Source of the DNA: Chamaelirium japonicum
Lineage: Eukaryota; Streptophyta; Magnoliopsida; Liliales; Melanthiaceae
DNA length: 64,000 bases
NCBI GenBank assembly: GCA_947650365.1
Contig: OX393553.1
Span: 41,649,949-41,713,948 of the forward strand
Direction of reading: 5' to 3'
A program made the translations under genes and the position numbers. Shown in pieces: positions 1 through 64,000 of this stretch. The notes below the pieces were generated by a model. It was not told the DNA's origin. It worked only from the letters and a program-made list of their open reading frames with translations, and made no database searches. How positions within the stretch are numbered: the stretch's first letter is position 1; every line of letters begins with the position of its first letter.

Positions 1-478
1 GGATTGTATGAATGAATTAGAATTGTACGAATGAATTAGAATGGATACATTCGTACGAACGAATTAGAATGGATCGTTTGAATGATTTAGATTGGATCGT
101 ATTAATGAATTAGAATGGATCATGCGAATGAATTAGAATAGATCGTACGAATTAATTAGAATGGATACATTCGTGCAAATGAATTAGAATGGATCATATG
201 AATGAATTAGAATGGATCGTATGAGTGAATTTGAATGGATCGTACGAATGAATTAGAATAGATTGTGCGAATGAGTAAGAATGGATCGTACGAAGGAATT
301 AGATTGGATCGTATGAATGAATTAGAATGGATCGTGCGAATGAATTAGAATGGATCGTATGAATGAATTAGAATGGATCGTATGAATGAATTAGAATGGA
401 TCGTACAAAAAGAATTAGAATGGATCGTACGAATGAATTAGAATGAATCGTATGAATGAATTAGAATGGATCGTGTAT
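1..478 (+). repeat. Satellite block, + direction
   Basis: The block contains about 20 monomers, including 28-bp units near 38-65 and 155-182 and an 18-bp shortened unit near 23-40. It ends in a '+' to '-' flip at the text GATCGTGTATGTACGATCC near 469-487. Confidence 0.9.
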
Positions 479-2230
479 GTACGATCCATTCTAATTCCTT
501 CGTACAATCCATTCTATTTCATTCGTTCAATCCATTCTTATTCATTCGCACAATCTATTCTAATTCATTCGTATGATCCATTCTAATTCATTAGCACGAT
601 CCATTCTAATTCATTTGTACGATCCATTCTATTTCATTCGTAAGATCCATTTCTAATTCATTCGTACGATCCATTCTAATTCATTCGTACGATCCATTCT
701 AATTCATTCGCACGAATGTATCCATTCTAATTCATTCGTATGATCCATTCTAATTCCTTCGTACGAATGTATCCACTCTAATTCATTCGTACGATCCATT
801 CTAATTCATTCGCACGATCTATTCTAATTCATTCATACGATCTATTCTAATTCATTCGCACGATCCATTCTAATTCATTCATACGATCCAATCTAATTCA
901 TTCGTACGATCCATTCTAATTCATTCGCACGATCCATTCTAAATCATTCGTACAATCCATTCTTACTCATTCGTACGATCCATTCTAATTTATTCATTCA
1001 TACGATCCATTCTAATTCATTCGTATGTATCCATTCTAATTTATTCGTACGATCCATTCTAATTCATTCGTACGATCCATTCTAATTCATTCGTACGATC
1101 CATTCTAATTCATTCGCACGATCCATTCTAATTCATTCGCACGAATGTATCCATTCTAATTCCTTCGCACGATCCATTCTAATTCATTCATACGATCCAA
1201 TCTAATTCATTCATACGATCCATTCTAATTCTTTCGCACGAATGTATCCATTCTAATTCATTCGTACAATCCATTCTAATTTATTACTACGAAAAAACAC
1301 AATACACTCTAATTCGATCATACGATCCATTCTAATTCATTCATACAATCTATTCTAATTCTTTCACACGATCCATTCTAATTTATTCATACGATCCATT
1401 CTAATTCATTCGTATGATCCATTCTAATTCATTCGTACAATCCATTCTATTTCTTTCGTACGATCCATTCTTACTCATTCGTACGATCCATTCTAATTCA
1501 TTCGCACGAATGTATCAATTATTATTCATTCATACGATCCATTCTAATTCATTCGTACGATCCATTCTAATTCCTTCGTACGATCCATTCTAATTCCTTC
1601 GTATGATCCATTCTAATTTCATTCGTATGATCCATTCTAATTCCTTCGTACGATCCATTCTTATTTATTCCCATGAATGTATCCATTCTAATTCATACGT
1701 ACGATCCATTCTAATTGATTTATACGATCCAATCTAATTCATTCATACAATCCATTCTAATTCATTCACACGAATGTACAATCTATTCTAATTCATTCAT
1801 ACGATCCATTCTAATTCATTCGCACGATCCATTCTAATTCATTCGCACGAATGTATCCGTTCTAATTCATTCGTACGATCCATTCTAATTCATTCGCACG
1901 AATGTATCCATTCTAATTCATTCGTACGATCCATTCTAATTCATTCGCACAATCCATTCTAATTCATCCGTACGATCTATTCTAATTCATTCGTACGATC
2001 CATTCTAATTCATTCATACGATCCATTCTAATTCATTCGTACGTTCAATTCTAATTCATTAGCACGATCCATGCTAATTCATTCGTATGATCCATTCTAA
2101 TTCATTCGTACAAACCATTCTATTTCATTCGTACGATCCATTCTTACTCATTCGTATGATCCATTCTAATTCATTCGCAAGAATGTATCCATTCTAATTC
2201 ATTCGTACAATCCATTCTTACTCATTCGTA
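479..2230 (-). repeat. Satellite block, - direction
   Basis: Mixed 23- and 28-bp units; the 28-bp units show as GCACGAATGTATCC. A rare A6-containing variant, GAAAAAACAC, lies at 1291-1300 and recurs at 58585. A CCCATGAATGTATCC unit near 1669-1683 is shared with 6.19, 24.3 and 33.9 kb. The block ends at CATTCGTA joined to ATGAATTAG. Confidence 0.9.
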
Positions 2231-3022
2231 ATGAATTAGAATGGATACATTCGTGCAAAAGAATTAGAATGGATTGTATTAATGAATTAAAATGGATCGT
2301 GCAAGTGAATTAGAATGGATCGTGCTAATGAATTAGAATGGATCATACGAATGAATTAGAATAGTTTGTGCGAATGAATTAAAATGGATCGAACGAATGA
2401 ATTAGAATGGATCGTGCTAATGAATTAGAATGGATCGTAAAAATGAAATAGAATGGAATGTACGAATGAATTAGAATGGATCGTACGAATGAATTAGAAT
2501 GGATCGTATGAATGATTTAGAATGGATACATTCGTGCGAATGAATTATAATGGATCGTGCGAATGAAATAGAATGGATCGTACGAATGAATTAGAATGGA
2601 TCGTACGAATGAATTAGAATAGATTGTGCGACGAATTAGAATGGATTGTATGAATGAATTAGAATGGATCGTATGAATGAATTAGAATGGATCATACGAA
2701 TGAATTAGAATGGATCGTACGAATGAATTAGAATGGATACATTCGTGCGAATGAATTAGAATGGATCATACGAATGAGTAAGAATGGATCGTACGAATGA
2801 ATTAGAATGGATCGTACGAATGAATTAGAATGGATCGTACGAATGAATTAGAATAGATTGTGCGAATGAATTAGAATGGATCGTACGAATGAATTAGAAT
2901 GGATCGTACGAATGAATTAGAATGGATCGTACGAATGAATTAGAATGCATCGTGCGAATGAATTAGAATGGATCGTGCGAAGGAATTAGAATGGATCGTA
3001 TGAATGAATTAGATTGGATCGT
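2231..3022 (+). repeat. Satellite block, + direction
   Basis: Opens with a 28-bp unit followed by the unusual GTGCAAAAGAATTAG variant, also seen near 13.65 and 16.06 kb. The rest is ordinary 23-bp units with several GATTGTGCG types. It ends at GATCGTAC joined to GCACGAATG. Confidence 0.9.
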
Positions 3023-4018
3023 ACGCACGAATGTATCCATTCTAATTCATTCGTACGATCCATTCTAATTCCTTCGTACGAATGTATCCACTCTAATTCA
3101 TTCGTACGATCCATTCTAATTCATTCGCATGATCCATTCTAATTCATTCGTACGATCCATTCTTATTCATTCGCACGAATGTATCCTACGAATGAATTAG
3201 AAGGGATATATTCGTGCAAATGAATTAGAATGGATAGTATGAATAAATTAGAATGGATCGTACGAATGAATTAGAATGGATACATTCGTGCGAATGAATT
3301 AGAATGGATCGTATTAATGAATTAGAATGGATTGTGCGAATGAATTAGAATGGATCGTATGAATGAATTAGAATGGATCGTACGAATAAATTAGAAGGGA
3401 TCATACGAAGGAATTAGAATGGATCGTATGAATGAATTAGATTGGATCGTACGCACGAATGTATCCATTCTAATTCATTCGTATGATCCATTCTAATTCC
3501 TTTGTACGAATGTATCCACTCTAATTCATTCGTACGATCCATTCTAATTCATTCGTACGATCCATTCTAATTCATTCGTACGATCCATTCTATTTCATTC
3601 GTACGATCCATTCTTACTCATTCGTACGATCCATTCTAATTCATTTGCGCAAATATATCCATTCTAATTCATTCGTACGATCCATTCTAATTCCTTTGTA
3701 CGATACATTCTAATTCATTCGCACGAATGTATCTATTCTAATTCATTCCTACGATCTATTCTAATTTATTCATACGATCCATTCTAATTCATTCGCACGA
3801 ATGTATCCATTCTAATTCATTCGTACGATCCATTCTAATTCATTCGCACGATCCATTCTAATTCATTCGTATAATCCATTCTATTTCATTCGTACGATCC
3901 ATTCTTACTCATTTGTACGATCCATTCTAATTCATTCGCACGAATGTATCCATTCTAATTCATTCGTACGATCCATTCTAATTCATTCGCACGATCCATT
4001 CTAATTCCTTCGTAGGAT
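3023..4018. repeat. Three alternating blocks (-,+,-) with a repeated flip junction
   Basis: Directions are '-' at about 3023-3187, '+' at 3188-3450 and '-' at 3451-4018. The '+' to '-' junction (GATCGTACGCACGAATG, with TTAGATT just before) is found at 3021 and again at 3449, 428 bp later, with about 170 bp of matching flank after it. The segment is a short local duplication of an inversion boundary. Confidence 0.85.
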
Positions 4019-4606
4019 CCGTACGAATGAATTAGAATGGATCGTATGAGTGAATTAGAATGGATTGTATGAATGAATTAGAATGGATCGTACGAATAAA
4101 TTAGAATGGATACATTCGTGCGAATGAATTAGAATGGATCGTATGAATGAATTAGATTGGATCGTATGAATGAATTAGAATGGATCGTGCGAATGAATTA
4201 GATTGGATCGTACGAATGAATTAGAATGGATACATTCGTGTGAATGAATTAGAATGGATCGTACGAATGAATTAGAATGGATCGTACGAATGAATTAGAA
4301 TGGATACATTCGTGCGAATGAATTAGAATGGATCGTAAGAAAGAATTAGAATGGATCGTATGAATGAATTAGAATGGATATATTCATGCAAATGAATTAG
4401 AATAGATCGTACGAATGAGTAAGAATGGATCGTACGAATGAAATAGAATGGATCGTACGAATGAATTAGAATGGATCGTACGAATGAATTAGAATGGATC
4501 GTGCGAATGAATTAGAATGGATCGTACGAATGAATTAGAGTGGATACATTCGTACGAAGGAATTAGAATAGATCGTACGAATGAACTAGAATGGATACAT
4601 TCGTGC
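4019..4606 (+). repeat. Satellite block, + direction
   Basis: Rich in 28-bp units (ATACATTCGTGCG). It contains the GAGTGGATACATTCGTACG type near 4537, whose reverse complement (GTACGAATGTATCCACTC) appears near 761, 3076 and 3504. Confidence 0.88.
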
Positions 4607-4832
4607 GTATGATCCAATCTAATTCATTCATACGATCCATTCTAATTCCTTCGTACGATCCATTCTAATTCATTCGTACGTTCCATTCTAACTCATTCAT
4701 ACGATCCATTCTAATTCATTCGCATGATCTATTCTAATTCATTCATACGATCCATTCTAATTCATTCGCACGAATGTATCCATTCTAATTAATTCATACG
4801 ATCCATTCTAATTCATTCGCACGAATGTATCC
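4607..4832 (-). repeat. Satellite block, - direction
   Basis: Ordinary units. It ends with GAATGTATCC joined directly to TACGAATGAATTA, the same join seen at about 3187. Confidence 0.87.
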
Positions 4833-6124: not shown

Positions 6125-8942
6125 TGATCCATTCTATTTCATTCGTATGATCCATTCTAATTCCTTCGTACGATCCATTCTTATTCATTCCCATGAATGT
6201 ATCCATTCTAATTCATTCGTACGATCCATTCTAATTCATTCGTACGATCCCTTCTAATTCATTCGTACGATCCATTCTAATTCATTCATACGATCCATTC
6301 TAATTCATTCATACAATCCATTCTAATTCTTTCACACGATCCATTCTAATTCATTCGTACGATCGATTCTAACTCATTTGTACGATCCATTCTTATTTAA
6401 TCATATGAACCATTCTAATTCATTCGCACGAATGTATCTATTCTAATTCATTTGTATGATCCATTCTAATTCATTCGCACGATCCATTCTAATTCATTCG
6501 TACGATCCATTCTAATTCATTCGCACGATCCATTCTAATTCATACGTACGATCCATTCTATTTCATTCATACGATCCATTCTAATTCATTCGCACGAATG
6601 AATCCATTTTAATTCATTCATATAATCCATTCGATTTCATTCGTACGATCCATTCTTACTCATTCGTATGATCCATTCTAATTCATTCGCACGAATGTAT
6701 CCATTCTAATTCATTCGTACGATCTATTCTAATTCATTCGTACAATCAATTCTAATTCATTCGCACGAATTTATCCATTCTAATTCATTCGTACGATCCA
6801 TTCTAATTCATTCGCACAAACTATTCTAATTCATTCATACGTTTCGTACAATCTATTCTAATTCACTCGTACGATCCATTCTAATTCATTCATACGATCC
6901 ATTCTAATTCCTTCGTACGATCCATTCTAATTCCTTCGTACGATCCATTTTAATTCATTCGTACGATCCATTCTAATTCATTCGTTCGATCCATTATTAC
7001 GATCCATTCTAATTCATTCGTACGATCCATTCTAATTCATTCGCACGAATGTATCCATTCTAATTCATTCATATGATCCATTCTAATTCATTCATACGAT
7101 CCAATCTAATTCATTCGCACAATCCATTCTAATTCATTCGCACAATCTATTCTAATTCATTCGTACGATCCATTCTAATTCATTCACACGATCCATTCTA
7201 ATTCATTTGCACGATCCATTCTAATTCATTCCGTACGATCCATTCTAATTCATTCGTATGATTCATTCTAATTCATTTGCACGATCCATTCTAATTCATT
7301 TGCACAATCTATTCTAATTCATTTGTACGATCCATTCTAATTCATTGGCACGATCCATTCTAATTCATTCGTACGATCTATTCTATTTCATTCGTACGAT
7401 CCATTCTTACTCAATCATATGATCTATTCTAATTCATTCACACGAATGTATCCATTCTAATTCATTCGTACGATCCATTATAATTCATTCACACGATCCA
7501 TTCTAATTCATTAATACGATCCAATCTAATTCATTCCTATGATCCATTCTAATTCATTCGCACGAATGTATCCATTCTAATTCATTCGTATGATCCATTG
7601 TAATTCATTCGCACGATCCATTCTAATTCATTCGTACGATTCATTCGCACGATCCATTCGAATTCACTCATACGATCCATTCTAATTCATTCATACGATC
7701 CATTCTAATTCATTCGCACGAATGTATCCATTCTAATTCAATTGTACGATCCATTCTAATTCATTCGTACGAATGTATCCAATCTAATTCATTCATACGA
7801 TCCATTCTAATTCATTCGCACGATCCATTCGAATTCACTCATACGATCCACTCTAATTCATTCGTATGATCCATTCTAATTCATTCGTACAATCCATTCT
7901 ATTTCATTTGTACGATTCATTCTTACTCATTCATACTATCCATTTTAATTCATTCGTACGATCCATTCTAATTCATTCGCATGAATGTATCCATCATTTG
8001 TAAGATCCATTCTAATTCATTCATACGATCCATTCTAATTCATTCGTACGATCCATTCTAATTCATTCATACGATCCAATCTAATTCATTCATACGATCA
8101 ATTCTAATTCATTCGTACGATCCATTCTAATTCATTCATACGATCCATTCTAATTCATTCGTACGAGCCATTCTAATTCATTCGTACAATTCTAATTCCT
8201 TCGTACGATCCATTCTAATTCCTTTGTTCTAATTCATTCATACGATCCATTCTAATTCATTCGTACGATTCATTCTAATTCAATCCATTCTAATTCATTC
8301 GTACGATCCATTCTAATTCATTCGTACAATCCATTCTATTTTATTCGTACGATCCATTCTTGCTCATTCGTACGATCCATTCTAATTCATTCGTACATAC
8401 GATCCATTCTTATTCATTTGCACGAATACATTCGTACGATCCATTCTTACTCATTCGTATGATCCATTCTAATTCATTCGCACGAATGTATCCATTCTAA
8501 TTCATTCGTACGATCCATTCTAATTCATTCGCACAATCCATTCTAATTCATTCGCACGATCAATTCTAATTCATTCATACGATCCATTCTAATTCATTCG
8601 TACGATCCATTCTTACTCATTCGTATGATCCATTCTAATTCATTCGCACGAATGTATCCATTCTAATTCATTCGTATCCATTCTAATTCATTCGTACGAT
8701 CCATTCTAATTCATTCGCACAATCTATTCTAATTCATTCATACGATCCATTCTAATTCATTCGTACGATCCATTCTAATTCATTCGCACGATCCATTCTA
8801 ATTCATTAATACGATCCATTCTAATTCATTCGTACGACGCACGATCCATTCTAATTCATTCATACGATCCAATCTAATTCATTCATACGATCCATTCTAA
8901 TTCATTCGTATGTATCCATTATAATTCATTCATACGATCCAT
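6125..8942 (-). repeat. Long satellite block, - direction
   Basis: About 2.8 kb. The start (6123-6225) matches 1603-1700, including the CCCATGAATG unit. GAATTCACTC variants occur at 7660 and 7831. The stretch 8160-8300 has several partly deleted units (GTACAATTCTAATTCC, CCTTTGTTCTAATTC), the most scrambled spot of the block. It ends at the GATCCATTGAATTAG junction shared with 13184 and 62979. Confidence 0.9.
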
Positions 8943-11860
8943 TGAATTAGAATGGATATATTCGTGCAAATGAATTAGAATGGATCATACGAATGACTAA
9001 GAATAGATTGTATGAATGAATTAGAATGGATCATATGAATGAATTAGAATGGATCGTGCGAATGAATTCGAATGGATCGTGCGAATGAAATAGAATGGAT
9101 ACAAAAGAATTAGAATGGATCATACGAATGAATTAGAATGGATTTTATGAATGAATTAGAATGGATCGTGCTAATGAGTTAAGAATGGATCGTACGAATG
9201 AATTAGAATGAATCGTACGAAGGAATTAGAATGGATCGTACGAATGAGTTAGAATGGATTATACGAATGAATTAGAATGGATCGTACGAATGAATTAGAA
9301 TGGATACATTCGTGCGAATGAATTAGAATAGATCATACGAATGAATAAGAAATGGATCATACGAATGAATTAGAATGGATGGTACGAATGAATTAGAATG
9401 GATCGTACGAATGAATTAGAATGGATGGTACGAATGAACTAGAATGGATCGTGCGAATGAATTAGAATGGATTTTATGAATGAATTAGAATGGATCGTAC
9501 GAAGGAATTTGAATGGATCGTACGAATGAACTAGAATGGATTATACGAATGAATTAGAATGGATCGTACGAATGAATTAGAATGGATCGTACAAATGAAA
9601 TAGAATGGATACATTCGTGCGAATGAATTAGAATGGATCATACGAATGAGTAAGAAATGGATCGTACGAATGAATTAGAATGGATGGTACGAATGAATTA
9701 GAATGGATCGTACGAATGAATTAGAATGGATAGTACGAATGAACTAGAATGGATCGGACGAATGAATTAGAATGGATCGTACGAATGAATTAGAATGGAT
9801 TCTGCGAATGAATTAGAATGGATATATTCGTGCGTAGAATGGATCGTATGAATGAATTAGATTGGATCGTGTGAAAGAATTAGAATGGATTGTATGAATG
9901 AATTAGAATGGATCGTACGAATGAATTAGAATGGATCGTACGAATGAATTAGAATGGATCGTGTGTCGTACGAATGAATTAGAATGGATTGTATTAATGA
10001 ATTAGAATGGATCGTGCGAATGAATTAGAATGGATCATACGAATGATTAAGAATGGATTGTATGAATGAATTAGAATGGATCGTATGAATGAATTAGAAT
10101 GGATCGTACGAATGAATTAGAATGGATTGTACGTATCAATTAGAATAGATACATTCGTGCGAATGAATTAGAATGGATCGTATGAATGAATTAGAATGGA
10201 TCGTATGAATGAATTAGAATGGATCATACGAAGGAATTAGAATGGATCGTATGAATGAATTAGAATAGATTGTGCGAATGAATTAGAATGGATCGTATGA
10301 ATGAATTAGAATGGATCGTACGAATGAATTAGAATGGAATGGATTGTACGAATAAATTAGAATGGATCATGCGAATGAATTAGAATGGATTGTACGAATA
10401 AATTCGAATGGATCGTACGAATGAATTAGAATGGATCGTACGAATGAATTAGAATGGATCGTACAAAGGAATTCGAAAGGATCATACGAATGAATTATAA
10501 TGGGTCGTACAAAGGAATTAGAATGGATCGTACGAAGGAATTAGAATGGATTGTACGAATGAATTAGAATGGATCGTACGAATTAGAATCGATCGTATGA
10601 ATGAATTATAATGGATATATTCGTGCAAATAAATTAGAATGGATCATACGAATGAGTAATAATGGATTGTATGAATGAATTAGAATGGATCGTATGAATG
10701 AATTAGAATGGATTATACGAATGAATTAGAATGGATCGTACGAATGAATTAGAATGGATCGTACGAATGAATTAGAATGGATACATTCGTGCGTAGAATG
10801 GATCGTACGAATGAATTAGAATGGATCGTGTGAAAGAATTAGAATGGATTGTATGAATGAATTAGAATGGATGGTATGAATGAATTAGAATGGATCGTAC
10901 GAATGAATTAGAATGGATTGTATGAATGAATTAGAATGGATCGTGCGTCATACGAATGAATTAGAATGGATCGTATTAATAAATTAGAATGGATCGTGTG
11001 AATGAATTAGAATGGATCATACGAATGAATTAGAATGGATCGTATAAATGAAGTAGAATGGATGCATACGAATGAATTAGAATGGATGCATACGAATGAA
11101 TTAGAATGGATCGTATGAATGAATTAGAATGGATCGTACGAATGAATTAGAATAGATCGTACGAATGAATTAGAATGGATCGTATGAATGAATTAGAATG
11201 GATCGTACGAATGAATTAGAATGGATCGTATGAATGAATTAGATTGGATCGTATGAATGAATTAGAACGATCATATGAATGAATTAGATTGGATACATTC
11301 GTGCGAATGAATTAGAATGGATCATACGACTGAGTAAGAAATGGATCGTACGAATGAATTAGAATGGATTGTACGAATAAATTAGAATGGATCGTACGAA
11401 TGAATTAGAATGGATCGTACGAATGAATTAGAATGGATTGTGCGAATGAATTAGAATGGATACATTCGTGCGTAGAATGGATCGTACGAATGAATTAGAA
11501 TGGATCGTGTGAATGAATTAGAATGGATTGTATGATTGAATTAGAATGTATCGTATGAATGAATTAGAATGGATCGTACGAATGAATTAGAATGGATCGT
11601 ACGAATGAATTAGAATGGATCGTGTGTCGTACGAATGAATTAGAATTGATCGTATTAATGAATTAGAATGGATCGTACGAATGAATTAGAATGGATCGTA
11701 CGAATGAATTAGAATGGATCGTATGAATAAATTAGAATGGATACATACGAATGAATTAGAATGGATCGTATGAATGAATTAGATTGGATCGTATGAATGA
11801 ATTAGAATGGATCATATGAATGAATTAGAATAGATCGTACGAATGAATTAGAATGGATCT
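8943..11860 (+). repeat. Long satellite block, + direction, with higher-order structure
   Basis: About 2.9 kb. Three copies of a tagged module sit inside: GCGTAGAATGG at 9832, 10791 and 11470, each followed 129 or 152 bp later by a shortened unit GTGTGTCGTAC or GTGCGTCATAC. It ends in GATCTCTAATTC, a junction also found at 53613 and 55197. Confidence 0.9.
9832..11650 (+). repeat. Three-copy higher-order module tagged GCGTAGAATGG
   Basis: The tag marks a 28-bp unit fused to a truncated next unit. Copies start at 9832, 10791 and 11470 (spacings 959 and 679). In each the order is a GTGTGAA(A/T)G unit, GATTGTATG, ordinary units, then a cut unit ending GTCGTAC/GTCATAC and a GATCGTATTAATG-type unit. 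The tag also occurs near 48731, 55504 and 61390. Confidence 0.85.
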
Positions 11861-16979: not shown

Positions 16980-18675
16980 AATGGATCGTATGAATGAATT
17001 AGAATGGATACATACGAATGAATTAGAATGGATCGTATGAATGAATTAGATTGGATCGTATGAATGAATTAGAATGGATCATGCGTCGTACGAATGAATT
17101 AGAATGGATCGTATTAATGAATTAGAATGGATCGTGCGAATGAATTAGAATGGATCGTACGAATGAATTAGAATGGATCGTATGAATGAATTAGAATAGA
17201 TTGTGCGAATGAATTAGAATGGATCGTACGAATGAATTAGAATGGATACGAATGAATTAGAATGGATACATTCGTGCGAATGAATTAGAATGGATCATAC
17301 GAATGAGTAAGAATGGATCGTACGAATGAATTAGAATGGATCGTATGAATGAATTAGAATTGATCGTGCGAATGAATTAGAATGGATTGTGCGAATGAAT
17401 TAGAATGGATCGTACGAATGAATTAGAATGGATACATTTGTGCGAATGAATTAGAATGGATCATACGAATGAGTAAGAATGGATCGTACGAATGTATTCG
17501 TTCAAATGAATTAGAATAGATCGTATGTACGAATGAATTAGAATGGATCGTACGAATAAAATAGAATGGATTGTACGAATGAATTAGAATGGATCGAACG
17601 AATGAATTAGAATGGATTGAATTAGAATGAATCGTACGAATGAATTAGAATAGATCGTATGAATGAATGAGAACAAAGGAATTAGAATGGATCGTACGAA
17701 GGAATTAGAATTGTACGAATGAATTAGAATGGCTCATACGAATGAATTAGAATGGATCGTATGAATGAATTAGAATGGATCTTACGAATGAATAAGAATG
17801 GATCGTATGAATGAATTAGATTGGATCATACGAATGAATTAGAATAGATCGTATGAATGAATTAGAATGGATCGTACAAATGATGGATACATTCGTGCGA
17901 ATGAATTAGAATGGATCGTACGAATGAATTAGAATGGATCGTATGAATGAGTAAGAATGCATGAATCGTACAAATGAAATAGAATGGATTGTACGAATGA
18001 ATTAGAATGGATCATACGAATGAATTAGAGTGGATCGTATGAGTGAATTCGAATGGATCGTGCGAATGAATTTGAATGGATCGTTTGAATGAATTAGAAT
18101 GGATTGTACGAATGAATTAAAATGGATACATTCGTGCGAATGAATTAGAATGGATCGTACGAATGAATTAGAATGAATTAGAATGGATAAATTCGTGCGT
18201 ATAAATTAGAATGGATCGTAAGAAGGAATTAGAATAGATCATCGTATGAATGAGTAAGAATGTATCGTACGAATTAAATAGAATGGATTGTACGAATGAA
18301 TTAGAATGGATCGTACAAATAAATTAGAATGGATTCATTCGTGCGAATGAATTAGAATGGATCGTGCGAATGAATTAGAATGGATCGTATGAATGAATTA
18401 GAATGGATACATTCGTATGAATGAATTAGAATGGATCGTGCGAATAAATTAGAAAGGATCGTACGAATGAATTAAAATGGATCGTATGAATGAATTAGAA
18501 TAGATCGTACGAATGCATAAGAATGGATCGTACGAATGAATTAGAATGGATACATTCGTGCGAATGAATTAGAATGGATCATATGAATGAATTAGATTGG
18601 ATCGTATTAATGAATTAGAATGGGTCGCATGAATAAATTAGAATGGATCGTGCTAATGAGTAAGAATGGATCGTA
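16980..18675 (+). repeat. Satellite block, + direction
   Basis: Carries the second copy of the 13.7-kb module (about 17.02-17.62 kb) and, from about 17.93 kb, the start of the 9.4-kb duplicated segment. It ends at GATCGTATTCTAATTC. Confidence 0.9.
17020..17620 (+). repeat. Dispersed duplicate, copy 2
   Basis: Partner of 13680-14290. It lies just upstream of the 9.4-kb duplicated segment and is not itself included in it. Confidence 0.87.
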
Positions 18676-19223
18676 TTCTAATTCATTCGTACGATCCATT
18701 CTAATTCATAAGTACGATCCATTCTAATTCATTCATACGATCCATTCTAATTCATTCACACGAATGTATCCATTCTAATTCATTCGTACGATCCATTATA
18801 GTTCATTCGCACGAATGTATCCATTCTAATTCCTTCGTACGATCCATTCTAATTCATTCATACGAATGTATCCATTCTAATTCATTCATACGATCCATTC
18901 TAATTCATTCGCACGAATGTATCCATTCTAATTCATTCGTACGATCCATTCTAATTCATTCGCACAATCTACTCTAATTCATTCGTACGATCCATTCTAA
19001 TTCATTCGCACAAATGTATCCATTCTATTTCATTCGTACGATCCATTCTAATTCATTCGCACGAATGTATTCATTCTAATTCCTTCGTACGATCCATTCT
19101 AATTCATTCATACGATCCATTCTAATTCATTCATACAATCCATTCTAATTCTTTCACACGATCTATTCGAATTCATTCGTACGATCCATTCTAATTCATT
19201 CGTACAATCCATTCTATTTCATT
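18676..19223 (-). repeat. Satellite block, - direction (9.4-kb copy A)
   Basis: Matched at 28091-28640. Includes the marker CATTATAGTTCATTC near 18785, repeated near 28212. Confidence 0.9.
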
Positions 19224-19949
19224 AGAATGGATCGTACGAATGAAATAGAATGGATCGTACTTATGAATTAGAATGGATCGTACGAATGAATTAGAATGGA
19301 TCATGCGATCGTACGAATGAAATAGAATGGATTGTACGAATGAATTAGAATGGATTGTACGAATGAATTAGAATGGATCGTACAAATGAATTAGAATGGA
19401 TCGTACGAATGAATTAGAATGGATCATGTGAAAGAATTAGAATGGATTGTATGAATGAATTAGAATGGATCGTATGAATGAATTAGAATGGATCGTACGA
19501 ATGAATTAGAATGGATACATTCGTGCGAAAGAATTAGAATAGATCGTATGAACAAATTAGAATGGATCGTATGAATGAATTAGAATGGATATATTCGTGC
19601 AAATAAATTAGAATGGATCGTACGAATGAGTAAAAATGGATCGTACGAATGAAATATAATGGATTGTACGAATGAATTAGAATGGATCGTACGAATGAAT
19701 TAGAATGGATATGGATCATACGAATGAAATAGAATGGATACATTCATGCGAATGATTTAGAATGGATCGTGCGAATGAATTAGAATGGATCGTACGAATA
19801 AATTAGAATGGATACATTCGTGCGAATGAACTAGAATGGATCGTATGAATGAATTAGAGTGGATACATTTGTACGAATGAATTAGAATGGATCATACGAA
19901 TGAATTAGAATGGATACATTCGTGCGAATGAATTAGAATGGATCATACG
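19224..19949 (+). repeat. Satellite block, + direction (9.4-kb copy A)
   Basis: Matched at 28641-29366. Includes a GTACTTATG unit near 19257 and the GATATGGATC variant near 19708. Reading the minus strand gives a 69-codon open frame that is only a by-product of the repeat. Confidence 0.9.
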
Positions 19950-20017
19950 ATAACATTCGTACGATCCATTCTTACGATCCTTTCTATTTCATTCATATGA
20001 TCCGTTCTAATTCATTC
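19950..20017 (-). repeat. 68-bp micro-inverted block (copy A)
   Basis: A three-unit '-' island flanked by long '+' blocks, containing CTTACGATCC. The same island is at 29367-29435. Confidence 0.88.
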
Positions 20018-21045
20018 TAGAATGGATTGTACGAATGAATTAGAATGGATCGTACGAATGAATTAGAATTGATCGTGCGAATGAATTAGAATGGATCGTA
20101 CGAATGAATTAGAATGGATACATTTGTGCGAATGAATTAGAATGGATCATATGAATGAGTAAGAATGAATCGTACGAATGAAATAGAATGGATTGTATGA
20201 ATGAATTAGAATAGATCGTGCTAATGAATTAGAATGGATCGTACGAATGAATTAGAATGGATCGTACGAATGAATTAGAAAGGATACATTCCTGCTAATG
20301 AATTAGAATGGATCGTATGAATGAATTAGAATGGATCGTATGAATGCATTAGAATGGATCGTACGAATGAAGTAGAATGGATCGTACGAATGAATTAGTA
20401 TGGATACATTCGTGCGAATGAATTAGAATGGATCATACGAATGAGTAAGAATGGATCGTACGAATGAAATAGAATGGATTGTACGAATAAATTAGAATGG
20501 TTCGTACGAATGAATTAGAATGGATCATATGAATGAATTAGAATGGATACATTCGTGCGAATGAATTCGAATGGATCATACGAATGAGTAAGAATGGATC
20601 GTACGAATGAAATAGAATGGATTGTACGAATGAATTAGAATGGATCGTACGAATGAATTAGAGTAGATTGTATGAATGAATTAGAATGGATACATTCGTG
20701 CGAATGAATTAGAATGGATCGTACGATTGAATTAGAATAGATCGTACGAATGAATTAGAATGGATCGTACGAATGAATTTGAATAGATTGTGCGAATGAA
20801 TTAGAATAGATCGTACGAATGAATTAGAATAGATCGACGTATGAATTAGAATGGATCGTACGAATGAATTAGAATATATTGTGCGAATGAATTAGAATGG
20901 ATCATGCGAATGAATTAGAATGGATCGTACGAATGAATTAGAATGGATACATTCGTGCGAATGAATTAGAATGGATCGTACGAATGAATTAGAATGGATC
21001 GTATGAATGAATTAGAATGGATACATTCATGCGAATGAATTTGAG
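20018..21045 (+). repeat. Satellite block, + direction (copy A)
   Basis: Starts TTCTAGAATGG. Contains several runs of the GATCATAC / GAGTAAG / GAAATAG / GATTGTAC unit order that defines the pentamer module. Matched at 29436-30440. Confidence 0.9.
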
Positions 21046-21502
21046 TAATTCATTCATACGATCCATTCTAATTCATTCATACAATCCATTCTAATTCTTT
21101 CACACGTCATACGATCCATTCTAATTCATTCATACGATTCAATCTAATTCATTCATACAATCCATTCTAATTCATTCGCACGAATGTATCCATTCTAATT
21201 CATTCCTACGATCCATTTCTTACTCATTCGTATGATCCATTCTAATTCATTCGCACGTATACGAATGAATTAGAATGGAGCGTACGAATGAATTAGAATG
21301 GATACATTCGTATGAGCCATTCTTACTCATTCGTATGATCCATTCTAATTCATTCGTACGATCGTACGAATGAATTAGAATGGATCGTACGAATGAATTA
21401 GAATAGATTGTGCGAATGAATTAGAATGGATCGTGCGAATGAATTAGAATGGATTGTACGAATGAATTAGAATGGATCGTATGAATGAATTAGAATGGAT
21501 CA
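21046..21502. repeat. Cluster of five short blocks (copy A)
   Basis: '-' 21046-21257, '+' 21258-21311, '-' 21312-21362, '+' 21363-21502, then '-' onward. In the matching cluster at 30441-30979 there are 80 extra bases, made of 23+6+23+28 bp, which include the GATCTGGATC tag also seen near 14302. Confidence 0.85.
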
Positions 21503-23700: not shown

Positions 23701-24291
23701 ATAAGAATGGATCGTACGAATGAATTAGAATAGATTGTGTGAATGATTTAGAATGGATCGTACGAATGAATTAGAATGGATACATTCGTGCGAATGAATT
23801 AGAATGGATCGTACGAATGAGTAAGAATAGATCATACGAATGAAATAGAATGGATTGTACGAATGAATTAGAATGGATTCATTCATGCGAATGAATTAAA
23901 ATGGATCGTGCGAATGAATTAAAATGGATCGTATGAATGAATTAGAATGGATACATTCGTGCGAATGAATTAGAATGGATCTTACGAATGAATTAGAATG
24001 GATCGTACGAATGAATTAGAATGGATCGTATGAATGAATTAGATTGGATCGTATGAATGAATTAGAATGGATCGTACGAATGAATTAGAATAGATCGTAC
24101 GAATGAATTAGAGTGGATCGTACGAATGAATTAGAATGGATCGTGCGAATGAATTAGAATAGATTGTGCAAATGAATTAGAATGGACTGTATGAATGAAT
24201 TAGAATGGATCGTACGAAGGAATTAGAATGGATACATTCGTGCGAATGAATTAGAATGGATCGTACGAATGAATTAGAATGGATACATTCG
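23701..24291 (+). repeat. Satellite block, + direction (copy A)
   Basis: Opens at CATAAGAATGG. Matched at 33311-33901 with an unchanged 9611-bp offset. Confidence 0.9.
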
Positions 24292-24349
24292 TACGATCCA
24301 TTCTTATTCATTCCCATGAATGTATCCATTCTAATTCATTCGTACGATC
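24292..24349 (-). repeat. 58-bp micro-inverted block (copy A)
   Basis: Contains CCCATGAATGTATCC. It is preceded by GATACATTCGTACGATCC and closed by GATCAATTAGAATGG. The same island occurs at 33902-33959. Confidence 0.87.
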
Positions 24350-29366: not shown

Positions 29367-29435
29367 ATAACATTCGTACGATCCATTCTTACGATCCTTT
29401 CTATTTCATTCATATGATCTGTTCTAATTCATTCT
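29367..29435 (-). repeat. Micro-inverted block (copy B)
   Basis: Counterpart of 19950-20017; same CTTACGATCC content. Confidence 0.87.
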
Positions 29436-33901: not shown

Positions 33902-33959
33902 GTACGATCCATTCTTATTCATTCCCATGAATGTATCCATTCTAATTCATTCGTACGAT
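33902..33959 (-). repeat. Micro-inverted block (copy B)
   Basis: Counterpart of 24292-24349. Confidence 0.87.
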
Positions 33960-40599: not shown

Positions 40600-43400
40600 G
40601 AATTAGATTGGATCGTATAAATGAATTAGAATGGATCGTGCGAATGAATTAGAATGGATCGTATGAATGAATTAGAATGGAATGGATTGTATGAATGAAT
40701 TCCTTCGTACGAATGAATTAGAAAGGATCGTATGAATGAATAAGAATGGATCGTACGAAGAAATTAGAATGGATCATACGAATGAAATAGAATGGATCGT
40801 ACGAAGGAATTAGAATGGATCGTACGAAGGAATTAGAATGGTGCGATTGAATTAGAATGGATTATGTGAATGAATTTGAATGGATCGTACGAATGAATTA
40901 GAATAGATCGTACGAATGAATTAGAATAGATACATTCGTGCGAATAAATTAGAATGGATCGTACGAATGAGTAAGAATGGATTGTGCGAATGAATTAGAA
41001 TGGATCGTGCGAATGAATTAGAATGGATCGTGCGAATGAATTAGAATAGATTGTGCGAATGAATTAGAATGGATCGTACGAATGAATTAGAATGGATACA
41101 TTCGTGCGAATGAATTAGAATGGATCGTACGAATGAATTAGAATGGATACATTCGTGCGAATAAATGAATTAGAATGGATCGTGCGAATGAATTAGAATG
41201 GATCGTACGAATAAATTAGAATGGAATGGATTGTATGAATGAATTCCTTCGTACGAATGAATTAGAATGGATCGTATGAATGAATAAGAATGGATCATAC
41301 GAAGGAATTAGAATGGATCATACGATTGAAATAGAATGGATCGTACGAAGGAATTAGAATGGATCGTACGAAGGAATTAGAATGGTGTGAATGAATTAGA
41401 ATGGATTGTGCGAATGAATTAGAATGGATCGTACGAATGAATTAGAATAGATCGTATGAATAAATTAGAATGGATACATTCGTGCGAATGAATTAGAATG
41501 GATTGTACGAATGAATTAGAATGGATCGTGTGAATGAATTAGAATGGATCGTGCGAATGAATTAGAATGGATCGTGCGAATGAATTAGAATGGATACATT
41601 CGTGCGAATGAATTAGAATGGATCGTGTGAATGAATTAGATTGGATCGTATAAATGAATTAGAATGGATCGTGCGAATGAATTAGAATGGATCGTACAAA
41701 TGAATTAGAATGGAATGGATTGTATGAATGAATTCCTACGTACGAATGAATTAGAATGGATCGTATGAATGAATAAGAATGGATCGTACGAAGGAATTAG
41801 AATGGATCATACGAATGAAATAGAATGGATCGTACGAAGGAATTAGAATGGATCGTACGAAGGAATTAGAATGTGCGAATGAATTAGAATGGATTGTGTG
41901 AATGAATTAGAATGGATCGTAAGAATGAATTAGAATAGATCGTACGAATGAATTAGAATGGATACATTCATGCGAATGAATTAGAATGGATCGTACGAAT
42001 GAGTAAGAATGGATTGTACGAATGAATTAGAATGGATCGTGCGAATGAATTAGAATGGATCATGCGAATGAATTAGAATGGATATATTCGTGCGAATGAA
42101 TTAGAATGGATCGTATGAATGAATTAGATTGGATCATATAAATGAATTAGAATGGATCGTGCGAATGAATTAGAATGGATCGTACGAATGAATTAGAATG
42201 GAATGGATTGTACGAATGAATTCCTTCGTACGAATGAATTAGAATGGATCGTATGAATAAATAAGAATGGATCGTACGAAGGAATTAGAATGGATCATAG
42301 GAATGAAATAGAATGGATCGTACGAAGGAATTAGAATGGATCGTACGAAGGAATTAGAATGGTGCGAATGAATTAGAATGGATTGTGCGAATGAATTAGA
42401 ATGGATCGTACGAATGAATTAGAATGGATACATTCGTGCGAATGAATTAGAATAGATCGTACGAATGAGTAAGAATGGATTTTACGAATGAATTGGAATG
42501 GATCGTGCGAATGAATTAGAATAAATCGTGCGAATGAATTAGAATAGATTGTGCGAATGAATTAGAATGGATCGTACGAATGAATTAGAATGGATACATT
42601 CGTGCGAATGAATTAGAGTGGATCGTATGAATGAATTAGATTGGATCGTATAAATGAATTTGAATGGATCGTGCGAATGAATTAGAATGGATTGTACGAA
42701 TGAATTAGAATGGAATGGATTGTATGAATGAATTCCTTCGTACGAATGAATTAGAATGGATCGTATGAATGAATAAGAATGGATCGTACGAAGGAATTAG
42801 AATGGATCATACGAATGAAATAGAATGGATCGTACGAAGGAATTAGAATGGATCGTACGAAGGAATTAGAATGGCGCGAATAAATTAGAATGGATTGTGC
42901 GAATGAATTAAAATGGATCGTACGAATGAATTAGAATAGATCGTACGAATGAATTAGAATGGATACATTCGTGCGAATGAATTAGAATGGATCGTACGAA
43001 TAAGTAAGAATGGATTGTACGAATGAATTACAATGGACCGTGCGAATGAATTAGAATGGATTGTGCGAATGAATTAGAATAGATTGTGCGAATGAATTAG
43101 AATGTATCGTACGAATGAATTAGAATGGATACATTCGTGTGAATGAATTAGAATGGATCGTACGAATGAATTAGAATGGAATGGATTGTATGAATGAATT
43201 CCTTTGTACGAAAGAATTAGAATGGATCGTATGAATGAATAAGAATGGATCGTACGAAGGAATTAGAATAGATCATACGAATGAAATAGAATGGATCGTA
43301 CGAAGGAATTAGAATGGATTGTACGAATGAAATAGTATGGATCGTACGAATGAAATAGAATGGATTGTATGAATGAATTAGAATGGATCGTACGAATGGA
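40600..43400 (+). repeat. Six-copy higher-order repeat of 466-544 bp
   Basis: A recognisable run recurs: GAATGGAATGGATTGTATG, then GAATTCCTTCGTACG, a GAATAAG unit, a GAAGG unit, a GAAATAG unit, two GAAGG units, then a shortened AATGGTGCG unit. The CC of GAATTCC lies at 40702, 41246, 41735, 42223, 42735 and 43201, giving spacings of 544, 489, 488, 512 and 466 bp. Single copies also exist at 24451, 26709, 34062 and 36195. Length differences arise from gain or loss of 23- and 28-bp units. Confidence 0.9.
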
Positions 43401-43579
43401 TTAGAATGGATCGTACGAATGAATTAGAATGGATACATTCGTGCGAATGAATTAGAATGGATCGTACGAATGAATTAGAATGGATCGTACGAATGAATTA
43501 GAATGGATCGTATGAATGAATTAGAATGGATTGTATGAATGAATTAGAATGGATCGTACAAATGAATTAGAATGGATCG

Positions 43580-44760
43580 TACGAATGAATTAGAATGGAT
43601 ACATTCGTGCGAATGAATTAGAATGGATCATACGAATGAGTAAGAATAGATCGTACGAATGAAATAGAATGGATTGTACGAATGAATTAGAATGGATCAT
43701 ACGAATGAATTAGAATGGATACATTCGTGCGAATGAATTAGAATGGATCGTACGAATAAGTAAGAATGGATCGTGCGAATGAAATAGAAAGGATCGTGCG
43801 AATGAATTAGAATGGATTGTACGAATGAATTAGAATGGATCGTATGAATGGATACATACGAATGAATTAGAATGGATCGTACAAATGAATTAGAATGGAT
43901 TGTATGAATGAATTAGAATGGATCGTGTGAATGAATTCGAATGGATCGTGCGAATGAAATAGAATGGATACAAATGAATTAGAATGGATCATACGAATGA
44001 ATTAGAATGGATCGTATGAATGAATTAGAATGGATCGTACGAATGAATTAGAATGGAACATACGAATGAATTAGAATGGAAACTTTCGTGCGAATAATTA
44101 GAATGGATCATACGAATGAGTAAGAATGGATCATACGAATGAAATAGAATGGATTGTACGAATGAATTAGAATGGATCATACGAATGAATTAGAATGGAT
44201 CGTACGAATGAATTAGAATGGATACATTCGTGCGAATGAATTAGAATGTATCATACGAATGAGTAAGAATAGATCGTACGAATGAAATAGAATGGATTGT
44301 ACGAATGAATTAGAATGGATCGTACGAATGAATTAGAATGGATCGTACGAATGAGTAAGAATGGATCGTGCGAATGAAATAGAAAGGATCGTGCGAATGA
44401 ATTAGAATGGATCGTACGAATGAATTAGAATGGATCGTATGAATGGATACATACGAATGAATTAGAATGGATCGTACAAATGAATTAGAATAGATTGTAT
44501 GAATGAATTAGAATGGATCGTGTGAATGAATTCGAATGGATCGTGCGAATGAAATAGAATGGATATAAATGAATTAGAATGGATCATACGAATGAATTAG
44601 AATGGATCGTATGAATGAATTAGAATGGATCGTACGAATGAATTAGAATGGAACATACGAATGAATTAGAATGGAAACTTTCGTGCGAATAATTAGAATG
44701 GATCATACGAATGAGTAAGAATGGATCATACGAATGAAATAGAAAGGATTGTACGAATGA
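43580..44760 (+). repeat. Two-copy tandem repeat of 595 bp
   Basis: GATACATACG is at 43851 and 44446, and AACTTTCGTG at 44081 and 44676, both exactly 595 bp apart. Shared rare units include GAAAGGATCG, GAATTCGAATGG, a shortened GATACAAATG unit and a shortened GAATAATTAG unit. The constant offset shows no net indel between the two landmarks. Confidence 0.9.
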
Positions 44761-46065
44761 ATTAGAATGGATCGTACGAATGAATTAGAATGGATTGTAC
44801 GAATGAATTAGAATGGATCGTACGAATGAATTAGAATGGATCGTATGAATGAATTAGAATGGATACATTCGTACGAATGAATTAGAATAAATCGTATGAA
44901 TGAATTAAATGTATCGTACGAATGAAATTGAATGGATCGTACGAATGAATTAGAATGGATACATTCGTGCGAATGAATTAGAATGGATCATACGAATGAG
45001 TAAGAATAGAATGGATACATTCGTGCATAGAATGGATCGTACGAAGGAAATTAGAATGGATCGTATGAATAAATAAGAATGGATCGTATGAATGAAATAG
45101 AATGGATTGTACGTATCAATTAGAATGGATCGTATGAATGAATTAGAATGGATCGTACTTATGAATTAGAATAGATTGTATGAATGAATTAGAATGGATA
45201 CATTCGTGCGAATGAATTAGAATGGATCATACGAATGAATTAGAATAGATCGTACGAATGAATTAGAATGGATCGTACGAATGAATTAGAATAGATCGTA
45301 CGAAGGAATTAGAATGGATCGTACGAAGGAATTAGAATAGATCGTATGAAAGAATTAGAATGGATACATTCCTGCGAAAGAATTAGAATAGATCGTATGA
45401 ATGAATTAGAATGGATCGTATGAATGAATTAGAATGGATCCTACGAATGAAATAGAATGGATCGTACGAATGAAATAAAATGGATCGTACGAATGAATTA
45501 GAATGGATCGTGCGAATGAATTAGAATGGATCGTGTGAAAGAATTAGAATTGATTGTATGAATGAATTAGAATGGATCGTATGAATGAATTAGAATAGAT
45601 CGTACGAATGAATTAGAATGGATACATTCGTGCGAATGAATTAGAATGGATCGTACGAATGAGTAAGAATGGATCGTACGAATGAAATAGAATGGATTAT
45701 ACGAATGAATTAGAATGGATCATACGAATGAATTAGAATGGATTGTACGAATGAATTAGAATGGATCGTACGAATGAATTAGAATGGATCGTATGAATGA
45801 ATTAGAATGGATACATTCGTGCGAATGAATTAGAATAGATTATGCGAATGAATTAGAATGGATCATACGAATGAATTAGAATGGATCATGCGAATGAATT
45901 AGCATAGATTGTGTGAATGAATTAGAATGGATCGTACGAATGAATTAGAATAGATACATTCGTACGAATGAATTAGAATGGATACATTCGTGCGAATGAA
46001 TGAATTAGAATGGATCATAAGAATGAATTAGAATGGATCGTACGAATGAATTAGAAAGGATCGTA

Positions 46066-48297
46066 ATCTAATTCATTCGATCTATTCTAATTCAATCATA
46101 CGATCCATTCTAATTCATTCATACAATCCATTCAAATTCTTTCACACGATCCATTCTAATTCATTCGTACGATCCATTCTAATTCATTCGTACAATCCAT
46201 TCAATTTCATTCGTACGATCCATTCTTACTCATTCGTATGATCCATTCTTTTTCATTCGCACGAATGTATCCATTCTAATTCCATTCTAATTCATTTGCA
46301 CGATCCATTCTAATTCATTCGCACGATCCATTATAATTTATTTGCACAATCCATTCTAATTCATTCGTACGATCCATTCTAATTCATTCGTACGATCCAT
46401 TCTAATTCATTCACACGATCCATTCTAATTCATTCGTACGATTCATTCTATGCACGAATGTATCCATTCTAATTCATTCGCACAATCCATTCTAATTCAT
46501 TCATACGATCCATTCTAATTCATTCGTACAATCCATTCTAATTCATTCGTACGATCTATTCTAATTCGTTCATACGATCCATTCAAATTCATTCATACGA
46601 TCCATTCTAATTCATTCACACGATCCATTCTAATTCAATCGTACGATCCATTCTAATTCATTCGTACATTCCATTCTATTTCATTCGTACGATCCATTCT
46701 TACTCATTCGTACGATCCATTCTAATTCATTCGCACGAATGTATCCATTCTAATTCATTCGTACAATCCATTCTATTTCATTCGTACGATCCATTCTTAC
46801 TCATTCATACGATCCATTCTAATTCATTCATACAATCCATTCTAATTCATTCATACGATCTATTCTAATTCATTCGTATGATCCATTCTAATTCCTTCGT
46901 ACGATCCATTCTATTTCATTCGTACGATCCATTCTTACTCATTCGTATGATCTATTCTAATTAATTCGCACGAATGTATCCATTCTAATTCATTCGTATG
47001 ATCCATTCTAATTTATTCGTACGATCCATTCTAATTTATTCGTACAATCCATTCTATTTCATTCGTACGATTGTACGATCCATTCTAATTCATTTGTACG
47101 ATCCATTCTAATTCATAAGTACGATCCATTCAAATTCATTCGTACAATCCATTCTAATTCATTCGTACGATCTATTCTAATTCCTTCATACGATCCATTC
47201 TAATTCATTCATACAATCCATTCTAATTCTTTCACACGATCCATTCTAATTCATTCATACGATCCATTCTAATTCATTCGTACAATCCATTCTATTTCAT
47301 TCGTACGATCCATTCTTACTCATTCGTATGATCCATTCTAATACATTCGTACGATATATTCTAATTCATTCGCACGAATGTATCTATTCTAATTCATTCG
47401 TACGATCCATTCTAATTCATTTGTACAATCCATTCCATTCTAATTCATTCGTACGATCCATTCTAATTTATTCATACGATCCATTCTAATTCATTCGCAC
47501 GATCCATTCTAATTCATTCGTACGATCCATTCTAATTCATTCATACGATCCATTCTAATTCATGCGCACGATCCATTCTAATTCATACGTACGATCCATT
47601 CTATTTCATTCGTACAATCCATTCTATTTCATTCGTACGATCCATTCTTACTCATTCGTATGATCCATTCTAATTCATTCGCACCAATGTATCCATTCTA
47701 ATTCATTTGCACGATCCATTCGAATTCACTCATACGATCCATTCTAATTCATTCGTATGATCCAGTCTAATTCATTTGTATCCATTCTATTTCATTCGCA
47801 CGATCCATTCGAATTCATTCACACGATCCATTCTAATTCATTCATACAATCCATTCTAATTCATTTGTACGATCCATTCTAATTCATTCGTATGTATCCA
47901 TTCTAATTCATTCATACGATCCATTCTAATTCATTCGTACGATCCATTCTAATTCATTCGCACGATCCATTCTATTTCATTCGCACGATCCATTCTTACT
48001 CATTCGTATGATCAATTCTAATTCATTCGCACGAATGTATACATTCTAATTCATTCGTACGATCCATTCTAATTCATTCGTACAATCCATTCTATTGCAT
48101 TCGTACGATCCATTCTTACTCATTCGTATGATCCATTCTAATTCATTCGCACGAATGTATCCATTCTAATTCATTCGTACGATCCATTCTTACTCATTCG
48201 TACGATCCATTCTAATTCATTCTCACGAATGTATCCATTCTAATTCATTCGTACGATCCATTCTAATTCATTCGTACAATCCATTCTATTTCATTCT
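46066..48297 (-). repeat. Long satellite block, - direction
   Basis: Several pentamer modules in '-' direction. Two 28-bp units at 48029 and 48149 are exactly 120 bp apart. Includes a GAATTCACTC module at 47722. The first 250 bp match the sequence after 50399. Confidence 0.9.
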
Positions 48298-62472: not shown

Positions 62473-62979
62473 TACGATCCATTCTTACTCATTCATATGA
62501 TCCATTCTAACTCATTCGCATAATCTATTCTAATTCATTCGTACGATCCATTCTAATTCATTCGTACGATCTATTCTAATTCATTCATACGATCCATTCT
62601 AATTCATTCGCACAATCTATTCTAATTCATTCATACGATCCATTCTAATTCATTCGTACGATCCATTCTAATTCATTCGTACGATCCATTCTAATTCATT
62701 CGCACGAATGTATTCATTCTAATTCATTCATACAATCTATTCTAATTCATTCGTACGATCCATTCTAATTCATTCGTACAATCAATTCTAATTCATTCGT
62801 ACGATCCATTCTAATTCATTCGCACGATCCATTCTAATTCATTGATACGATCCATTCTAATTCATTCGTACGATGCACGATCCATTCTAATTCATTCATA
62901 CGATACAATCTAATTCATTTATACGATCCATTCTAATTCATTCGTATGTATCCATTCTAATTCATTCATACGATCCATT
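62473..62979 (-). repeat. Satellite block, - direction
   Basis: Includes GTACGATGCACGATCC near 62868. It closes at the GATCCATTGAATTAG junction shared with 8943 and 13184. Confidence 0.88.
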
Positions 62980-63890
62980 GAATTAGAATGCATATATTCG
63001 TGCGAAAGAATTAATGGATAATAAATTAGAATGGATCGTATGAATGAATTAGAATGGATGCATACGAATGAATTAGAATGGTTCGTATGAATGAATTAGA
63101 TTGGATCGTATGAATGAATTAGAATGGATCGTACGAATGAAATAGAATGGATTGTACGAATGAATTAGAATGGATCGTACGAATGAATTAGAATGGATCG
63201 TGTGAATGAATTAGAATGGATACACTCGTGCGAATGAATTAGAATGGATCGTGCGAATGAAATAGAATGGATCGTACGAATGATTAAGAATGGATCGTAT
63301 GAATGAAATAGAATGGATCGTACGAATGAATTAGAATGGATATATTCGTGCAAATGAATTAGAATGGATCATACGAATGAGTAAGAATGGATTGTATGAA
63401 TGAATTAGAATGGATCGTACGAATGAATTAGAATTGATCGTACGAATCAATTAGAATGGATCGTACAAATGAATTAGAATGGATCGTATGAATGAATTAG
63501 AATGGATCGTACGAATGAAATAGAATGGATCGTACGAATGAATTAGAATGGATCGTACGAATGAAATAGAATGGATTGTACGAATGAATTAGAATGGATC
63601 GTACGAATGAATTAGAATGGATCGTATGAATGAATTAGAATGGATCATACAAATGAATTAGAATGGATCGTATGAGTGAATTCGAATGGATCGTGCGAAT
63701 GAATTAGAATAGATTATACGAATGAATTAGAATGGATCGTGCTAATGAGTAAGAATGGATCGTACGAATGAAATAGAATGGATTCTACGAATGAATTAGA
63801 ATGGATCGTACGAATGAATTAGAATAGATTGTATAAATGAATTAGAATGGATACATTCGTGCGAATGAATTAGAATGGATCGTACGAATG
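62980..63890 (+). repeat. Satellite block, + direction
   Basis: Begins with a truncated unit run (GAAAGAATTAATGGATAATAAATTAG near 63004). GTGAATTCGAATGG near 63676 is the '+' form of the GAATTCACTC variant. Ends GTACGAATGCCATTC. Confidence 0.87.
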
Positions 63891-64000
63891 CCATTCTAAT
63901 TCATTCGTACGATCCATTCTAATTCATTCATACGATCCATTCTAATTCATTCGTACATCCATTCTATTTCATTCGTACGATCCATTCTTACTCATTCGTA
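63891..64000 (-). repeat. Satellite block, - direction, running off the window end
   Basis: About five units with the TATTTCATTC and CTTACTCATTC types in pentamer order. The array continues beyond the window. Confidence 0.88.

Follow-up and report, generated by a model that had tools for sequence, protein, structure and literature searches.

Direction flips and copied junction families in the Chio centromere satellite of Chionographis japonica

How does a tandem satellite come to reverse its direction about once in every 850 bp? This question is raised by a 64-kb stretch of chromosome C5 (C5:41,649,949-41,713,948; hereafter the window) of Chionographis japonica (Chamaelirium japonicum at NCBI; Melanthiaceae). 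The window lies within an array of the CENH3-binding satellite monomers Chio1 and Chio2. We found that many of the flip junctions recur as near-identical copies, in the window and on other chromosomes. The most probable explanation is that strand-switch junctions formed rarely and that the segments bearing them were then copied extensively, rather than that flips were produced mainly by repeated simple inversion.

According to the text sections of PMC10264360, C. japonica is a holocentric plant with 12 chromosomes and megabase Chio arrays. Chio1 (23 bp) and Chio2 (28 bp; set apart from Chio1 by one substitution and a 5-bp indel) are described there as satellites enriched for CENH3 by chromatin immunoprecipitation sequencing, present on all chromosomes and making up about 16-17% of the genome. 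The same text mentions mixed forward and reverse arrays, and passages of PMC12722358 term the Chio orientation 'frequently alternating', in contrast to the consistently oriented Chama satellite. Both the satellite and the alternation of its direction had therefore been published before.

Direction blocks in the window and across the genome

The monomer period in the window was 23. The 23-bp monomer GGATCGTACGAATGAATTAGAAT and its 28-bp variant GGATACATTCGTGCGAATGAATTAGAAT, which occurs in 124 exact copies within the window, are distinguished by ACATT and one base. Because the monomer lengths and this 5-bp indel with a one-base difference fit the description in the text of PMC10264360, the satellite was identified as Chio1/Chio2; the comparison was made with that description, since the published monomer letters and 8-letter dyad stand in figures, and not letter by letter. 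The 8-bp dyad TCGTACGA is present in the window consensus, and TTCGTACGA, given as part of Chio in the text of PMC12722358, was found on its reverse strand.

The window was segmented by a profile hidden Markov model (HMM) with forward (F), reverse (R) and background states, in which the monomer was modelled in both directions and the 28-bp variant was permitted; the 28-bp path was taken by 345 of 2,691 monomer passes. The segmentation yielded 76 blocks, which is 75 flips across 64 kb. The sequence-only reading of this DNA had counted about 75 flips by eye and had proposed a segmentation by monomer direction as a check, and the two counts agree. Its statement that the whole 64 kb is pure satellite also held, as the background state was not used and no base was assigned to it. 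The number of 75 flips was obtained in 12 of 15 settings, combining switch probabilities from 1e-3 to 1e-6 with error rates of 0.08, 0.12, and 0.18; at a switch probability of 1e-8 (three settings), background gaps were put in instead, giving 103-105 boundaries. Block length averaged 842 bp (median 545, range 43-7,207 bp, nine blocks below 100 bp), close to the earlier estimates of one flip per about 850 bp and of blocks from about 50 bp to 7.2 kb. Every block preferred its direction by at least 43 nats, and the shortest one has a 44-bp copy at 30711-30754 with a direction log-odds of 45.3 nats. Forward blocks amounted to 38,340 bp and reverse blocks to 25,660 bp. Adjacent blocks abutted with no background bases between them, consistent with the little or no spacer seen by eye, with the proviso that a spacer of a few bases could be absorbed by the model. 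Within the longest block there are direct duplications, offset by about 0.5-2 kb, whose best pieces are 94.7-98.4% identical. Chio2 monomers were not tied to the flips, since 12.2% of them lay within 50 bp of a junction compared with 11.3% of random positions.

The hairpin potential suggested for the flips was borne out as a prediction. With DNA parameters and 200-nt windows, the predicted folding energy averaged -69 kcal/mol at 59 junctions (those with both neighbouring blocks longer than 100 bp), compared with -15 in 60 windows of a single direction and -7 once those windows had been mononucleotide-shuffled.

Flips were further counted in a sample of 151,420 bp of satellite, consisting of the window and 14 further stretches; L049-L059, chosen for or near known junctions, were left out. 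The sample contained 178 flips, or one per 851 bp, a density similar to the window average. Five 10-kb stretches near the window held 10-19 flips each, and flips were also present in stretches on C5 at 60 Mb and on C1, C2, C4, C6, C8, and C12; a 2-kb stretch of C7 (L040) was free of flips. The satellite extends into the 10 kb flanking the window on either side (L009, L010), was met on all 12 large scaffolds, and was found in 8 of 33 stretches placed without knowledge of the arrays (2 of 13 and 6 of 20). Exact 15-mers numbered 5,902,268 genome-wide, divided between the directions as 2,929,390 and 2,972,878, with one match in each direction for the reversed control. When scaled by the 15-mer density of the window, the satellite is estimated at about 336 Mb, or 22% of the assembly, somewhat over the published 16-17%, and the genome total by extrapolation is some 395,000 flips. 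The text of PMC10264360 gives a primary assembly of 1,526,137,861 bp, with 12 scaffolds of 1090.73 Mb in total and an N50 of 81.11 Mb.

On C1, stretch L021 includes an array edge (L021:1-3399) and a 1,188-bp non-satellite stretch inside the array (L021:5825-7012). A query with 1.5 kb of the window found no match in a plasmid collection.

Families of copied junctions

Junctions were compared over 50 bp per side, and a score of at least 85 of 100 was taken to define a partner, a threshold set after the score histogram had been viewed. A near-identical partner was found for 97 of 177 junctions (one of the 178 was left out for incomplete flanks), whereas 9 of 177 control chimeras, matched in phase but with arms from elsewhere, had one. 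Within the window the 75 flips represent 49 families, and 53 of the flips belong to families of at least two.

Part of this copying is by tandem duplication. Copies A and B in Table 1 carry the same 14 flips at offsets of 9.39-9.61 kb, and all 14 junction pairs score 89-100 of 100. Their ungapped pieces in a self-BLAST are 94.8-98.4% identical; a gapped alignment of 3.76 kb, across indels, gives 91.5% identity. A repeat on C3 has a unit of about 6.3 kb with about 20 flips in each, and its best pieces are 97.9-99.2% identical; one unit and a portion of the following one fall within the 10-kb locus there.

Genome copy numbers were determined for three junctions and one control; the three had been picked for recurring in the window or the sample, so they are not a fair sample of junctions. 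The 29-mer across the flip at 2229 has copies on C1, C2, C3, C4, and C5 among the matches listed. When one base was removed at the joint, the same arms had 4 copies in the genome, compared with 662 for the intact junction. Between copies of this junction on several chromosomes, mean pairwise identity is about 0.77-0.90 in bins 300-450 bp off the joint. Because identity falls away from the joint, the segments shared around these copies are short or old. The 34-mer across the flip at 8942 is found on 10 of the 12 chromosomes among the matches listed (C1, C2, C3, C5, C6, C7, C9, C10, C11, and C12) and also on small contigs; in the window, the junctions at 13183, 16477, and 16979 are near-identical to it. 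All copies of the 42-mer across the flip at 24296 lie on C5, at 41.67, 80.06, and 85.65 Mb. The F596/R53 block pair of this junction, with its surroundings at 41.67 Mb, is 90.6-93.0% identical over 1.5-2.1 kb to the places at 80.06 and 85.65 Mb, which are 38 and 44 Mb away; between themselves, these two places share 99.4% identity across 2.8 kb. In the fifth copy (L050) the R53 block is retained, preceded by a much longer F block.

Several features of the placement of these copies were observed in passing. Among the matches listed, those of the 2229 junction that fall on C2 are confined to the neighbourhood of its two ends, at 1.67-4.30 and 121.47-122.29 Mb. Also among these matches, minus and plus copies separated by 2.4-2.6 kb form pairs repeatedly on C2 and C3, as though the repeating unit were an inverted pair. 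The 8942 junction recurs on C1 near 27.1 and again near 29.8 Mb, its copies keeping their order and strands at a distance of 2.67-2.70 Mb; this reflects either a large duplication or two haplotypes in one scaffold.

Table 1. Features of the window (positions relative to its first base)
Feature	Position	Strand	Remark
Chio1 (23 bp)/Chio2 (28 bp) centromeric satellite, 76 direction blocks	1..64000	.	HMM segmentation; monomer lengths, published text
Tandem duplication copy A, 14 flips (18675 to 25279)	18171..27587	+	Alignable pieces to 27302
Tandem duplication copy B, same 14 flips (28092 to 34867)	27588..36788	+	
R-to-F junction, flip at 2229, 29-mer	2220..2248	+	662 exact genome copies (350 + 312)
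R-to-F junction, flip at 8942, 34-mer	8931..8964	+	116 exact genome copies, 58 per strand
F-to-R junction, flip at 24296 (copied at 33907), 42-mer	24277..24318	+	5 exact genome copies
Longest one-direction block, 7,207 bp	38860..46066	+	HMM
Shortest block, 43 bp (<2 monomers)	21317..21359	-	HMM; log-odds 43.0 nats
Large palindrome, mirror at ~4019 (R564|F593, F269|R220)	3241..4818	.	Inverted self-BLAST pieces centred at 4018 and 4029.5, 93.1 and 94.1% identical

Formation and spread of the junctions

We propose an origin in two steps. Junctions would arise occasionally and singly, by joining or template switching between opposite strands of the array, mostly with an overlap of 0-2 bases, and roughly a fifth of them would turn at the 8-bp dyad TCGTACGA of each monomer, where both strands read alike. 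The junctions would then ride as passengers while tandem duplication, some palindromic duplication, and copying between units multiply the flip-bearing segments, bringing some junctions to more than 100 copies on many chromosomes. The direction blocks, the families of copied junctions, their copies across chromosomes, and the excess at the dyad are shown by the data; we infer the repair or replication process involved, the direction of copying, and the lack of a separate function for the flips themselves.

The turning axis was determined for 112 junction families; four of the 116, with the junction inside the 28-mer insert, gave no axis. It fell at the dyad TCGTACGA, the most frequent axis, in 21 of the 112, compared with 4.9 expected (P = 1.6e-8), and a second axis, RF class 5, was also in excess (10 of 57). 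Mean overlap at the junctions was 1.4 and 1.9 bases, compared with 0.76 and 0.77 in random joins. As a separate observation, the 5-bp insertion of Chio2 lengthens the monomer dyad to CATTCG-TG-CGAATG, near the core of the R-to-F dyad flip, and from its letters the insertion looks like a tiny template-switch (quasi-palindrome) event.

Ordinary inversion, in which a segment is excised, turned, and reinserted so that both ends of a block are made at once, has precedents: satellite-segment inversions are known elsewhere, and array a2 of pea CEN6 has one inverted portion according to the text of PMC10027222. The two directions are also balanced genome-wide in the 15-mer counts given above. A clean inversion would, however, link the monomer phases at the two ends of the block. 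We looked for this linkage in 127 unique blocks, taking one block per junction-family pair and leaving out blocks beside non-satellite DNA or with a junction in the 28-mer insert. The phases agreed exactly in 7 and in 4 of the 127, compared with 5.5 expected in each case, and both ends were within one base of the prediction in 2 blocks; among the 11 blocks of at most 100 bp, neither end agreed. Such linkage could be masked if bases were lost at the breaks or if copying followed. Apart from a mild excess among long blocks, the phase test does not support clean inversion as the main source of flips, and we regard this explanation as unlikely. Fold-back duplication, in which an end that has broken or stalled turns back at a hairpin and serves as its own template, predicts that the arms of each flip mirror one another. 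Such mirrored block orders do occur at 4019 of the window and at 5179 of L052 (R178|F178), with inverted pieces 93.1-94.5% identical, and in 14 chunks of 10 kb, counting pieces of at least 200 bp and 95% identity, inverted copies exceeded direct ones in six (L010, 15 to 8; L026, 44 to 37; L052, 11 to 7), direct exceeded inverted in six, and two were equal. Mirroring of the arms was nevertheless not general. With 120-bp arms, 7 of 137 junctions were mirrored at the 5% level, about the number that chance would give (40 of the 177 were left out for a block shorter than 120 bp), and the arms were no more alike than those of unrelated junctions. With 700-bp arms, 8 of 188 junctions lay above z = 2 and 8 below -2 (L050 and L053-L059 left out). 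An excess of nearby inverted copies was sought in the window and not found, and by the same length and identity limits the whole window contains 98 direct and 27 inverted pieces, so that its recent copies are mostly direct. As the origin of every flip, fold-back is quite unlikely; it is unsupported as a general source on the 137 and 188 junctions, and we retain it for a few. The palindrome at 4019 is the clearest case of this kind in the window, with a 700-bp arm score of 521 against a null mean of 298 (z 2.2); the 120 bp beside its flip are not clearly mirrored, and it fell outside the best 25 in the 120-bp arm test. In several stretches outside the window, recent inverted copies equalled direct ones in frequency. 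Unlike most of the window, L026 (C2:20,000,001-20,010,000) has plentiful recent copies both ways, with 37 direct and 44 inverted pieces reaching 200 bp and 95% identity.

The flips might instead be held by selection, if adjacent inverted repeats extruded hairpins or cruciforms that aid CENH3 loading or the line-like holocentromere. Single-strand folding is predicted to be far stronger at flips (-69 compared with -15 kcal/mol per 200 nt), and dyads and non-B DNA are discussed in the text of PMC10264360 and PMC12722358. Against such a role, the Chama arrays of the sister genus keep a consistent orientation over hundreds of kilobases and yet bind CENH3, as passages of PMC12722358 state, and the Chio flips are irregularly spaced, as exemplified by the flip-free L040 and the 7.2-kb block; we judge selection for the flips to be decidedly improbable. 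A sequencing artefact through missed hairpin adapters, or an assembly artefact, is highly improbable as the source of the flips, even though megabase satellites are hard to assemble and the primary assembly exceeds the genome size as measured (PMC10264360, in its text). Missed adapters are unlikely because they would produce arms that mirror each other exactly, a pattern that the junctions in general lack. Junctions are also common to several chromosomes. Misassembly is unlikely because the PacBio HiFi libraries assembled with hifiasm had means of 14, 15, 20, and 26 kb according to the text of PMC10264360, so that a read of 14-26 kb should span about 16-30 flips. The mean flip density was also similar in the other sampled stretches, and mixed orientation is stated by the authors of PMC10264360 themselves in that text.

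Several observations weigh against rare strand switching followed by extensive copying. The dyad axis was unused by 91 of the 112 families, and Chama of Chamaelirium luteum has TTCGTACGA yet is consistently oriented according to the text of PMC12722358; because Chama shares the dyad motif without flipping, the dyad alone is insufficient for flipping. Of 51 blocks longer than 800 bp, 13 had a left-end phase that deviated by at most one base from what an inversion predicts, a mild excess over the 6.7 expected. The palindromes at 4019 and at L052 5179 are clear, so fold-back does occur, and overwriting of the arms subsequent to the flip would weaken both the phase and the mirror tests. The 24296 junction, one of the three counted, has only 5 copies in the genome. 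The sample of 151 kb is small beside the estimated 336 Mb of satellite. Finally, the assembly (1.519 Gb) exceeds the measured 1C value of 1,368 Mb given in the text of PMC10264360, so that some 'copies' may be two haplotypes, and for this reason the C5 pair at 80.06 and 85.65 Mb may represent haplotypes.

A further reading concerns the consequences of the flips. Because a few kilobases of array usually hold both directions, the flips might make Chio arrays direction-blind, in that centromere units could pair by homology and exchange whatever their chromosomes and their relative orientation, which could have let one satellite seed and homogenise the 100 units and lead to holocentricity. We consider this idea speculative and unlikely. 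On this reading, the one-directional Chama of the sister genus, by contrast, stayed in single large centromeres, and junction families would serve as bar codes of the exchange between units.

Chio among centromere satellites

A 23-bp repeat offers few markers, but a flip junction together with the variants beside it makes a mark that is rare and easily recognised. Junctions present at 662 and 116 copies, the latter on 10 of the 12 chromosomes among the matches listed, show that centromere units share segments and make this sharing directly traceable. Rare junctions that were much copied, rather than frequent inversion, are suggested as the cause of the shuffled look of the arrays, which bears on how centromere satellites spread along holocentric chromosomes.

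The satellite of the window does not differ in kind from Chio1/Chio2 as described in the text sections of PMC10264360, with which it shares the 23/28-bp monomers, the 5-bp indel, the 8-bp dyad, the 12 chromosomes, the megabase arrays, and the mixed directions; those sections hold no junction families, copy numbers, or tests of flip formation. Chama of Chamaelirium luteum, the centromere satellite of the sister genus, likewise contains TTCGTACGA, but it has a 60-bp monomer, consistent orientation, and higher-order repeats over hundreds of kilobases without flips (PMC12722358, text passages). FabTR-10 of the pea metapolycentromere is similar as a centromere satellite with no preferred orientation across arrays; unlike Chio, it runs in one direction within each array except a2, with no flip per 0.85 kb, as described in the text of PMC10027222. 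We do not claim that Chio is unique as a flipping satellite. A human centromere study (PMC11062924) is also said to mention 'changes in orientation'. What this analysis adds is the flip density elsewhere in the genome, the tests of flip formation, and the junction families with their copy numbers, and it is the junction families that are the part worth following.

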